DNA of 36,419 nucleotides. Source: Flavobacteriales bacterium. GTDB lineage: Bacteria > Bacteroidota > Bacteroidia > Flavobacteriales > UBA7430. Both the position numbers and the translations under genes were made by a program. This document shows, in pieces, positions 5,174 to 28,700 of the stretch. The DNA lies in the NCBI GenBank assembly GCA_029247585.1, contig JAQWKY010000087.1, positions 1-36,419 on the forward strand, read 5' to 3'. How positions within the stretch are numbered: the stretch's first letter is position 1; the number at the start of each line of letters is the position of its first letter. The notes under the pieces were generated by a model. It saw only the letters and a list, made by a program, of their open reading frames with translations. It had not been told where the DNA came from and searched no databases.

Positions 5174-5282
5174 GCACTTTCGGGAGTAAGGTGCAATTTC
5201 GATTGATTTATTATTTTCTTATGTGATTTATGTTGATTAAGATGTTTTTTTAATCTGCTCGTCTGTTTCTAAAAGTTTCCCT

Positions 5283-5752
5283 GAACAGATAAATTGTTTG
5301 CTTTCGCAAACAGATTTATGTCCTTTTGCCTTGATGCAAAAGGACGAAAAAATCAAGGCTTACAAAACTCCGTTATCCTTCTCTTGTAAAAGCTAAGTGC
5401 GGTTGGGTGATCTCCTCATAAATTCGGAGCTTCCCAATCTTACTAAGCTTTTACTGTGATCAGAATAACTCCTTTTTGAATGCCCTTTTAAAAAAAGATT
5501 AAAAAACAAAATCCCATTTTTACACTTAAGGGATCGACATGTTTTTGTTCTCGTAGTATTTGAAAAAAGGTGAATAGTCCTGGGTGAAGTAGCAACAAGC
5601 GAGCTTGTCTGCCAAAGGCAGGCCTGGCGGCTCTTGTTGCGGTGGTGATGAACCTTTTGTACAAATCAAGAGAAGAAAATGAAGTCTTGACTTTTTGGTG
5701 CTTTTGTGTCAAGACAAAAGCACATAAAATTGTTTCGTGGTAAACAAATGGA
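5283..5752. repeat. MITE-like inverted-repeat element with pseudoknot-forming ends
   Basis: A non-coding element of about 470 bp bounded by imperfect inverted repeats (about 5289-5361 and 5681-5750, roughly 75% alike). Each arm has an outer hairpin region (left 5289-5319, right about 5729-5747) and an inner motif. In the left inner motif, TCCTTTTG (5321-5328) pairs with CAAAAGGA (5337-5344) and its loop CCTTGAT (5329-5335) pairs with ATCAAGG (5352-5358), an H-type pseudoknot. The right arm (complement of 5681-5723) has the same architecture with GTGCTTTTG/CAAAAGCAC and TCTTGAC/GTCAAGA. The interior holds two more large hairpins (5386-5454 and 5592-5640). A 74-codon minus-strand frame at 5488-5712 lies across the structured ends and is not accepted as a gene. 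The exact boundaries are approximate. Confidence 0.7.
5386..5454. repeat. Long three-tier hairpin inside the inverted-repeat element
   Basis: GTAAAAGCT-A-AGT (5386-5398) pairs with ACT-A-AGCTTTTAC (5442-5454), 12 of 13 positions. Inside it TTGGG (5403-5407) pairs with CCCAA (5433-5437), and CTCC (5412-5415) pairs with GGAG (5426-5429). The nesting of three stems in 69 bases argues that structure rather than coding is what is maintained here. Confidence 0.6.
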
Positions 5753-5818
5753 CGAACAATTAAAGTTTAGACTGCTCTGAAGGCTCCAAATTCTTTGTAG
5801 TTTCATAAAAGATAAAAC

Positions 5819-5869: not shown

Positions 5870-8800
5870 TCATTTCGTTTTTTCTGCAACCCAGTTACGA
5901 GCATTTACAAAAGCTTCGATCCATGGCGAAACTTCGTTTCCATTTTCCGGATAGTGAGCCCAGTTCCAAGGGAATATCGACCGCTCCGGGTGAGGCATCA
6001 TCACCAAGTGACGGCCGTCTTTTGAAGTGATGGCTGCCGTGTTAAAGTCAGAGCCGTTTGGATTGGCAGGGTAGTTCTTGTAGCTGTACTTCGACACAAT
6101 ATGGTATTGGTCTTCATTGTAAGGTAAATTGAACTTACCTTCACCGTGTGCCACCCAAACACCTAAACGAGAACCCGATAGTGTGCTAAACATCACTGAG
6201 TTGTTTTCCGGTATATCTATATTCACAAAACCAGACTCAAATTTGTGAGAGTCGTTGTGAAGCATTTTTGGTTTTTCTTCGTGCTCCGGGTTGATCATTC
6301 CCAACTCTATGAATAACTGACAACCGTTACAAATACCTAAGGATAGTGTGTCTTCTCTTTCGAAGAAGTTTTTCAGGGCCGTACGTGCATTGTTGTTATA
6401 CTTAAATGAACCGGCCCATCCTTTTGCAGAGCCTAAAACGTCTGAGTTAGAGAATCCACCAACGGCAGCGATAAAGTTTACATCTGATAAATCTTCACGA
6501 CCGCTCATTAAGTCGGTCATGTGGATGTCTTTCACATCGAAACCGGCCAGGTAAAGTGCATACGCCATTTCACGTTCAGAGTTTGAACCCTTTTCACGGA
6601 TGATGGCCGCTTTTAATCCACTAGCTGTTTTTCTGTTTGGATCTAATCCCATGGCTGCCAACTGTCCGCTGAAACCTTCAGGGAAGTTGAATTCCAATGG
6701 CATGTGCTTGTAGTTGTTAAATCGCTCAAGTGCTTTTTCTTCACCACTCTGTTTGCGGTCTAACAAGTACGAAGTCTTGTACCAAACATCTCTTAAATCG
6801 CTAACGCTTAAGTTGAAGTTTGTATCCTTATTGGTAATGCTTAATTCAGAAGCATTGGTAGCATGACCAATGGTGTGGTAAGCAATATTCATTTCTGTTA
6901 AAATAGCATCCGCCTTGTCGTTGTCATTTACCTGAAGTAAAACACCTGAGTTTTCAGCGAATAAGACTTTAACAATATCTTGTTCGTTTAAGCCTGATAG
7001 ATCGATGTCGGCACCGAGGTTTACATCTGCAAAACAGAGTTCTAATAAAGCGGTAATTAAACCACCGGCAGAAATGTCGTGTCCGGCCTCAACCAGGTCA
7101 GACTTGATCAATTTCTGAATCGCATTGAACCCATTTTTAAAGAATTCAGCATCTTTAATTGTTGGCGTTTCAGAACCTACTTTGTTATTTATTTGAGCAA
7201 ATGAACTACCCCCTAATTTAAACGCATCTTGCGATAAGTTGATGTAGATGATCGGTGCATTTTCTTTTTTCTTTAATACAGGACTCACCACCTGGTTGAT
7301 GTTACTACACTCACCAATGGCAGAAATGATTACCGTACCTGGAGAAATCACTTTGTTTCCGTCTTTGTACTTCTGTGTCATTGATAAACTATCCTTTCCG
7401 GTAGGAACGTTAATCCCTAAAGAAATAGCGAAGTCACTGATCCCTTTTACTGCATCGTACAAGCGTGCATCTTCCCCTTCATTTCTACACGGCCACATCC
7501 AGTTGGCACTTAAAGAAACTCCGTTTAAGTTATCGGTAATAGGAGCGAAGACGATGTTTGTTAAGGCCTCGGCAATAGAATTGCGCGAACCGGCAACAGG
7601 ATCGATCAATGCACTTACAGGAGCGTGTCCTACCGAAGTAGCAACACCCAATTGACCTTTGTAATCTAAGGCCATCACACCACAGTTGTTTAGTGGGATG
7701 TGTAAAGGTCCTGTATTTTGTTGTTTGGCAACTCTACCCGATACACAACGGTCAACTTTGTTGGTTAACCAGTCTTTACATGCCACTGCTTCTAATTGAA
7801 GAACCGATGTAATGTATTCTAACAGGTTGTCTTGATTGTATGTTAGATTAGAGAAGTTTGAATCTTCTCTATGGTCTGTCATAATAGTTTTTGGAGAAGA
7901 ACCAAAGTAGTGATTCAACTTCATGTCGATAGGTTTACGACCGTCTTTACTTGACTCAAAAGAGAAGTTCATGTCGCTGGTAATTTCACCTACATTGTAG
8001 AAAGGTGCTCTTTCACGCTCGGAGATTTTACGAAGTTCTTCGAGGTGTTTTTCATCGATGACCAATCCCATACGTTCTTGAGATTCATTACCTACAATTT
8101 CTTTTGCGGATAGGGTAGGGTCTCCTACAGGAAGGGCATCCAGGTCTATTTTTCCACCTGTTTCTTCCACCAATTCCGACAGGCAGTTTAGGTGTCCACC
8201 GGCACCGTGGTCGTGAATGGAAACGATTGGATTATCATCACTTTCTACCATAGCTCTAATCGCATTGGCAGCACGTTTTTGCATTTCAGGGTTTGAACGC
8301 TGAATAGCATTCAATTCGATGGCGTTATCCAATTCACCGGTATCAACAGAAGATACCGAAGAACCTCCCATACCAATACGGTAGTTGTCACCACCTAAAA
8401 TTACGACGCGGTCACCTTTGTTAGGTACATCTTTAAGGGCATCCTCATGTTTACCCCATCCGATACCACCGGCCAACATGATCACCTTATCGAAACCAAG
8501 TTGTTTATTGTTTTCTTCGTGTTCAAAAGTCAAAACCGAACCCGAAATTAAAGGCTGACCGAATTTGTTCCCGAAGTCAGAAGCACCATTTGATGCTTTT
8601 ATTAAAATATCCATGGGTGTTTGGTACAGCCATGGACGCTCTTCCATTCCTGCTTCCCAATTACGCTCTTCTTCCAAACGAGAGTAGGAAGTCATGTAAA
8701 CGGCAGTACCTGCTAAAGGTAAACTACCTTTACCTCCAGCCAGACGGTCTCTAATCTCACCACCCGAACCTGTTGCAGCTCCATTAAAAGGTTCTACCGT

Positions 8801-27881: not shown

Positions 27882-28700
27882 TTAGTATTTAACTTCTACA
27901 TGAAATCCTAAACCCAAACCTTTTACGGTATTCCAGCTCCCTTGGCTAGTTTGCCGATTGACAATAGATCCGGTCAGTCGATCGGCAGAGAACAAAAGAC
28001 TTTTGTTCCCTAAATCTTGAATCCACTCCAAACCTATGTAAAAGTCTTCTTCTACCCATATATTGTAATCGCGAAGGTCTATGTGCATCATCCCGTTTCG
28101 TAGGGATGAGTTTACGATGATGTTTTCGTAGACCAATGACCTATGAGGCAGTCCATTCTTTAGGCTGTAGATGTTCACCCTAAAAACAAGAGGCTTGTAT
28201 TGGTTTTCATTGATGTTGAAATTGAAGGATTCCAATACGGTAGGGGAATCTTTTACGGAGATGACGACGCCTATCTCATTTCCCAATTCGTTGTTGGTGA
28301 AACCGGTAGATACGGATTTGGATTTTGTTTTATTACCTATCGTTTTGCGTCGCCATTTTTTCTCGGACAATACAATTTCAGACAATTCAAAAACTTCAGA
28401 ATTTAAATAGAGGGTATCACCTGAGCTAAATTCACTGATAAATGATCGAACACTTTGCGTATAACTTTCGTAGCCTATCATTGAAAATCTTAGGGCTTCT
28501 TCTTTTTGGGAAGCCTTGATTTTTAGACTGAAAAATCCATCAAGGTCAGAAACGGTACCTGTGTTTTGGTTTACAACACCTATGTTTACAAATGAGAGGG
28601 GCTGTTTGGTTTCACGATCGGCAACCACACCTTGAAAGGTGTTTTGGGCATAGAGGTTACTCACGAGAATGAGTAGGGGGCTCAGAAATTTTAAGGACAT
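27882..28700 (-). CDS. CarboxypepD_reg-like domain protein
   Basis: A 272-residue exported protein: signal peptide (MSLKFLSPLLILVSNLYAQ), then a carboxypeptidase-regulatory-like domain (residues about 22-110: FQGVVADRETKQPLSFVNIG, TVSDLDGFFSL, LRFSMIGYESY), a linker with EIVLSEKKWRRK, and a C-terminal beta-rich region (FRVNIYSLKNGLPH, NIWVEEDFYIGLEWIQ). This domain is frequent in Bacteroidota outer-membrane and surface proteins, where it forms an Ig-like plug. It follows the glutathione peroxidase gene after only three bases, so both are likely co-transcribed. Function unknown. Confidence 0.82.
   Translation of the reverse strand: MSLKFLSPLLILVSNLYAQNTFQGVVADRETKQPLSFVNIGVVNQNTGTVSDLDGFFSLKIKASQKEEALRFSMIGYESYTQSVRSFISEFSSGDTLYLNSEVFELSEIVLSEKKWRRKTIGNKTKSKSVSTGFTNNELGNEIGVVISVKDSPTVLESFNFNINENQYKPLVFRVNIYSLKNGLPHRSLVYENIIVNSSLRNGMMHIDLRDYNIWVEEDFYIGLEWIQDLGNKSLLFSADRLTGSIVNRQTSQGSWNTVKGLGLGFHVEVKY

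Follow-up and report, generated by a model that had tools for sequence, protein, structure and literature searches.

Do two arms of an inverted repeat that fold alike mark the ends of one mobile element, or is each an element of its own? The question arises from the window, a stretch of 36,419 nucleotides (contig JAQWKY010000087.1, assembly GCA_029247585.1) from a Flavobacteriales bacterium (genome G000; 1.79 Mb, 122 contigs). An earlier note had read positions 5283-5752 as a single inverted-repeat element whose ends form the same pseudoknot, and had left a non-autonomous mobile element and a structured RNA as alternatives.

Two units tail to tail

Both arms hold the stems described in that note, and the three double changes that it listed between them (one in stem S1, two in pseudoknot helix S2) are all correct. 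The arms (54 nt each, 5308-5361 versus 5682-5735) are 81% complementary; because they are inverted relative to each other, comparing one with the other is weak evidence, and homologues were therefore sought. The outer hairpins, also claimed to be conserved, are present on both sides (the right-hand one, TTGTTT..AAACAA, near 5730-5747) and recur in a second genomic copy on contig C110.

The reading as one element with two ends did not hold. The locus consists of two elements placed tail to tail (Table 1), each with its own rod hairpin: a left unit (5320-5484, plus strand, 165 nt) and a right unit (5536-5723, minus strand, 188 nt) that both fold into the same rod. Since the same pseudoknot-rod units also occur singly, the arms are not the ends of one element. 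By-eye comparison with the C110 copy (CTGCTAGTCCG...CGGACTAGCAG) and with a copy in genome G003 (L025) corrected the limits of the composite to those in Table 1. In G003, a solo copy (L034) related to the right unit shares its inner hairpin, and L025, which carries a REP-like hairpin inside its pseudoknot, is related to the left unit. Tail-to-tail pairs spanning 366-416 nt were also found in genome G015, Mucilaginibacter, a Prevotellaceae MAG and Flammeovirga. Elsewhere in the window, positions 28506-28535 (minus strand) matched the pseudoknot model at 18.4 bits (E 0.02), a weak match that is probably due to chance.

Table 1. Annotated parts of the composite locus, in window coordinates.
Feature	Position	Strand	Basis
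Whole composite: tail-to-tail pair of pseudoknot-rod units between imperfect terminal inverted repeats CTGCTCGTC... / ...GACGAACA	5255..5759	.	sequence
Left terminal inverted repeat CTGCTCGTCTG (C110 counterpart CTGCTAGTCCG)	5255..5265	+	sequence, C110 comparison
Outer hairpin GTTTGC-TTTC-GCAAAC, kept in C110 and G003 copies	5296..5311	+	
Left unit stem S1, 8-nt loop, GTCCTTTTG/CAAAAGGAC	5320..5345 (5320-5328/5337-5345)	+	
Left unit pseudoknot helix S2, CCTTGAT/ATCAAGG	5329..5358 (5329-5335 with 5352-5358)	+	covariation in homologues
Left unit rod hairpin P2-P3-P4 (GGC...GCC)	5357..5484	+	fold energy; nested architecture as in homologues
AT-rich spacer separating left and right units	5485..5535	.	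inferred from unit ends
Right unit rod hairpin (GAC...GTC), inner hairpin GCAACAAGAGCC..GGCTCGCTTGTTGC	5536..5686	-	inner hairpin conserved in L034, a solo copy in G003
Right unit pseudoknot helix S2, TCTTGAC/GTCAAGA	5685..5714 (loop 5707-5714 with 5685-5691)	-	
Right unit stem S1, GTGCTTTTG/CAAAAGCAC	5698..5723 (5723-5715/5706-5698)	-	
Right terminal inverted repeat (reverse complement TTGTTCGTCCA)	5749..5759	-	

Architecture and covariation of a unit

The boundaries of a unit are those of its structure. In a Chryseobacterium-type genus (g10), copies at unrelated sites have ~202 nt in common and are sharply bounded: they start with the first base of S1, and their terminal letters ...CCTAAGTC are followed by a purine in 33/33 copies. 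Each unit comprises S1 (9-10 bp), S2 (6 bp), an A-rich linker and, 3' of S2, a rod in which P2 (GACTTGGAAAC/GTTTCCTAAGTC) has its last pair at the very 3' end of the element, followed by P3 and P4. Unit length ranges from ~202 nt in the Chryseobacterium type, through the 165 and 188 nt of the window, to ~85 nt in Parabacteroides. The internal loop of P4 (AACTCG.../...CTCARACAG) recurs in other families and in the compact Parabacteroides form.

Compensatory change is extensive. Across 42 copies from one genus, a 49-pair structure was 95.9% paired, compared with 82.4% for shuffled and at most 56.3% for slid controls; 27 of its pairs showed double changes, and the covariation score was 0.316 versus 0.092. 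The variable S2 pair, which neither the pairs of the covariance model nor the scan pattern constrained, was of Watson-Crick type in 133 of 134 distinct motifs, drawn from many orders (T-A 68, A-T 47, C-G 18). S1 and S2 thus cross with the support of covariation, forming an H-type pseudoknot. This covariation, together with the homologues recovered by the covariance model, bears out the suggestion that structure is under selection; chance is excluded because a model encoding S1 alone found homologues in 144/396 genomes.

The pseudoknot shares crossing helices, linkers of 1, 1 and 6-7 nt and an A-rich long linker with H-type RNA pseudoknots, but here belongs to a dispersed repeat rather than to a fixed riboswitch, frameshift site or antitoxin RNA. 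STAXI (Weinberg et al. 2010, PMC2864571) is likewise a tandemly repeated pseudoknot of unknown function that has been proposed to act as RNA; however, it lies near DNA-handling genes and consists mainly of the pseudoknot, and our Rfam scans produced no match. Nothing in Rfam 15 (Flavo-1, STAXI, Bacteroidales-1 and all others) exceeded its gathering threshold, and when the locus was scanned with relaxed settings, all scores lay far below the thresholds. We found no description of the repeat in open papers (subscription literature, ISfinder and preprints lay outside the scope), so that, as far as Rfam and the open literature reach, it seems to be uncatalogued.

Some copies are themselves interrupted. 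REP-like hairpins (CACCCTTCGACAGGCTCAGGGTGACA; CCCGGACGTCCGGG) are inserted in the pseudoknots of L025 (G003 C126, ~186-290), L030, L037, L044, L048 and L051 (G035), either between S1 and the far S2 strand or within S1. A Parabacteroides MAG (L208) carries six compact copies (~85 nt) within 8 kb, all in the same orientation and interspersed with short genes that give the impression of nucleotidyltransferase/HEPN-type pairs.

Distribution and movement

The impression recorded in the earlier note that similar sequences occur in other Bacteroidota proved right, and the element is not single-copy everywhere. The host genome has one further copy (on C110), and blastn matches were obtained in 10/60 relatives. 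The covariance model (R1), with both window arms in its seed alignment and only S1 pairs encoded, scored those arms at 67.9 and 66.5 bits. In the order it matched 144/396 genomes and 54/108 genera at E<=0.01, including 18 genomes with weak, probably chance matches, notably genomes of 0.3-0.6 Mb. In the phylum it matched 91/395 genomes and 44/171 genera at E<=1e-4. Copies are often multicopy or in tandem arrays. Among the matches listed, a pattern scan recovered Flavobacteriales, Sphingobacteriales, Cytophagales, Chitinophagales, Saprospirales, Bacteroidales and Balneolaceae, the fusobacterium Propionigenium maris, and single Neomarinimicrobiota and Patescibacteria MAGs that are possibly contaminated; the covariance model confirmed most of these taxa. 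A copy is probably also present in Bacteroides thetaiotaomicron, which is genetically tractable, because the core TTTTGCCTTGATGCAAAA sits in a published deletion primer (BT1222-5OUT, downstream of BT1222; PMC12548429). Carriage by plasmids or phages was rejected: blastn of one Chryseobacterium-type copy found no match among them, and a pattern scan of 2.9 million viral contigs returned only 18 stretches.

Units are dispersed over unrelated intergenic sites and vary in presence between congeners. At the window site, between purL and a lipoprotein gene, the element is absent from a congener (G001, L099). Using the joined flanks of six copies from G236 as queries, we found one site (L113) contiguous, spanning ~400 nt and free of an insert, in 66 of 78 congeners among the matches listed, with its flanks 0.5-0.6 kb apart in G447 and G428; the flanks are too diverged for the breakpoints of the exact empty junction to be placed. 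A second site (L115) is filled in some congeners and empty in others. Some positions are old, one locus being common to six Chryseobacterium-type records and another to three; movement is therefore rare.

The composite and the solo units differ in their ends. The C110 copy has perfect 11-bp terminal inverted repeats (CTGCTAGTCCG, at 7582-7592 and 7704-7714), an interior deleted between CTTTTG repeats, and a perfect 10-bp target duplication (AAAAAGTAAT on both sides), and the empty counterpart of its site in G003 contains AAAAAGTAGT once. The repeats, the flanking duplication and the empty site suggest that the composite moved as a MITE-like unit. Among 13 genomes, CTGCTAGTCCG occurs only at both ends of the C110 copy, in G003 and at one site in G015. 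A target duplication, which the earlier note had suggested looking for, is thus present at this MITE-like derivative; none is visible at the window copy (5255-5759), and direct repeats at the ends of 33 solo copies did not exceed those in shuffles. Terminal inverted repeats are confined to the composite and the C110 copy. The composite and its C110 derivative therefore resemble bacterial MITEs such as that of Porphyromonas gingivalis (PMC4596501), whereas the solo units have neither terminal inverted repeats nor target duplication. Beside the C110 copy, the intergenic region L021 (7380-7560) holds several REP-like CCTTCGACA..CTCAG..TGACA repeats.

Tandem arrays have a 285-365-nt period on a single strand and look like recombination products, since the flanking DNA is repeated too. 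Such same-strand arrays at first sight resemble integron cassettes; this candidate was rejected, as the units sit between ordinary genes and have no ORF of their own. In two Flavobacteriales genomes (L083, L084) arrays lie within capsule/exopolysaccharide gene clusters, and in L082 (7900-12200) low-complexity ATTCAAAATCCAAAATTC tracts of variable length separate the array units.

Partner genes, strand and mode of action

Could another gene move these units? The search for a transposase, reverse transcriptase or other common gene near the copies found only ordinary conserved neighbours; no adjacent transposase, which the earlier note had suggested looking for, turned up. A reverse transcriptase partner, or a retroelement, was dismissed: RVT_1 occurs in only 76/396 genomes and in none of such many-copy genomes as G029 and G236. 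REPs, to which the earlier note had likened the ends, are 20-40 bp long and include GTAG- and CGTC-tagged families with Y1 transposases (PMC3733652; PMC2817692). Like REPs and BIMEs, the units are multicopy intergenic palindromes found in Bacteroidetes, for which recognition as a folded single strand has been proposed (PMC3733652; PMC2817692). They differ in being several times longer (165-202 nt), in their pseudoknot, in having no GTAG/CGTC tetranucleotide tag or linked transposase gene, and in their independence of a resident Y1 gene. That a REP-associated or IS200-type Y1 transposase moves a REP-like element is very improbable. The solo units' freedom from target duplication agrees with it, as does the co-occurrence of Y1 genes and copies at genome level (82/126, odds ratio 8), an association confounded by kinship and genome size. 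Yet 44 of the 126 genomes with clear copies encode no Y1 transposase, among them the host genome G000 and near-complete genomes in which 9-14 copies occur; the motif is absent within 1.5 kb of all 30 Y1 loci; and units of ~200 nt with a pseudoknot are far from REPs of 20-40 bp (PMC3733652). Y1 partnership was rejected on these counts, and the REP/IS200-type comparison is not supported.

The structure described in the earlier note stands, although folding may take place on the other strand. We lean towards the strand opposite to its left-arm reading, with the rod first and the pseudoknot last, on grounds of fold energy, of asymmetric wobbles and of how neighbouring genes are oriented. The alifold consensus energy is -35.4 on the opposite strand versus -26.0, with 14 further pairs; single rods are more stable there in 33/42 copies (p=4e-6, ignoring kinship), and the left rod of the window folds at -44.1 kcal/mol on the minus strand and -40.6 on the plus strand. 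Rod and S1 pairs comprise 1421 Watson-Crick pairs versus 7 G-U and 22 C-A, and in a wide set the outer S1 pairs show C-A over G-U at 41:8. Linker geometry, by contrast, favours the strand of the earlier note: linkers of 1, 1 and 6-7 nt, the long one A-rich on the plus reading, fit an H-type pseudoknot, and the complement would need one nucleotide to bridge six pairs.

So few wobbles make a DNA-level role possible. We nevertheless consider it quite unlikely that the repeat is a palindrome serving as a protein-binding or recombination site, its covariation kept or created in DNA, for example by template switching in hairpins. A wobble count low for so variable an RNA, the tandem arrays and the inverted pairs suit such an origin, but the non-Watson-Crick pairs and the fold energy differ between strands, the internal loops (AACTCG...CTCARACAG) stay unpaired and conserved where palindrome correction would erase them, and the pseudoknot core is conserved across phyla.

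Neighbouring genes are co-directional with the opposite strand in 70 cases versus 38 (p=0.003; 55 versus 36 in a first, smaller set), and divergent gene gaps are avoided (35:17). Both biases, like the energy and C-A over G-U asymmetries that indicate one strand, the positions common to 3-6 species and the compensatory changes among copies within one genome, agree with a tentative alternative: a host functional 3'-UTR or intergenic RNA domain (for mRNA 3'-end protection, attenuation or protein titration) that has been duplicated, with the fold selected in each copy. This alternative is possible, though the distribution speaks against it, being very patchy, covering half of the order's genera and failing in congeners; copies also occur in convergent and antisense settings, and no gene class is associated with them.

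The most likely reading, to which we give roughly an even chance, is that the repeats form a Bacteroidota family of interspersed, structured and non-autonomous elements that move or act as a folded single strand, a reading within the alternatives of the earlier note, both of which keep support. Copying or insertion would proceed through a folded single strand, either RNA or DNA that replication or transcription exposes, and a trans-acting protein may recognise the invariant pseudoknot core. On the strand involved, the rod would probably precede the pseudoknot, and this strand more often matches the direction of the adjacent gene. In the window, two tail-to-tail units would have been carried together by terminal-inverted-repeat transposition of the MITE kind. 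The widest form of this proposal is speculative and rather doubtful: a phylum-wide selfish element, RNA or single-stranded and gene-less, whose pseudoknot would let a protein of the host or of another source, so far not associated with transposition, mobilise it by a mechanism not yet described.

Copies within one genome are separated by numerous compensatory changes, which allows a direct check of folding. A folded repeat in about a quarter of the sampled Bacteroidota genomes, including those of gut Parabacteroides, and seemingly absent from Rfam and the open literature, could explain some of the unexplained intergenic repeats of this phylum.
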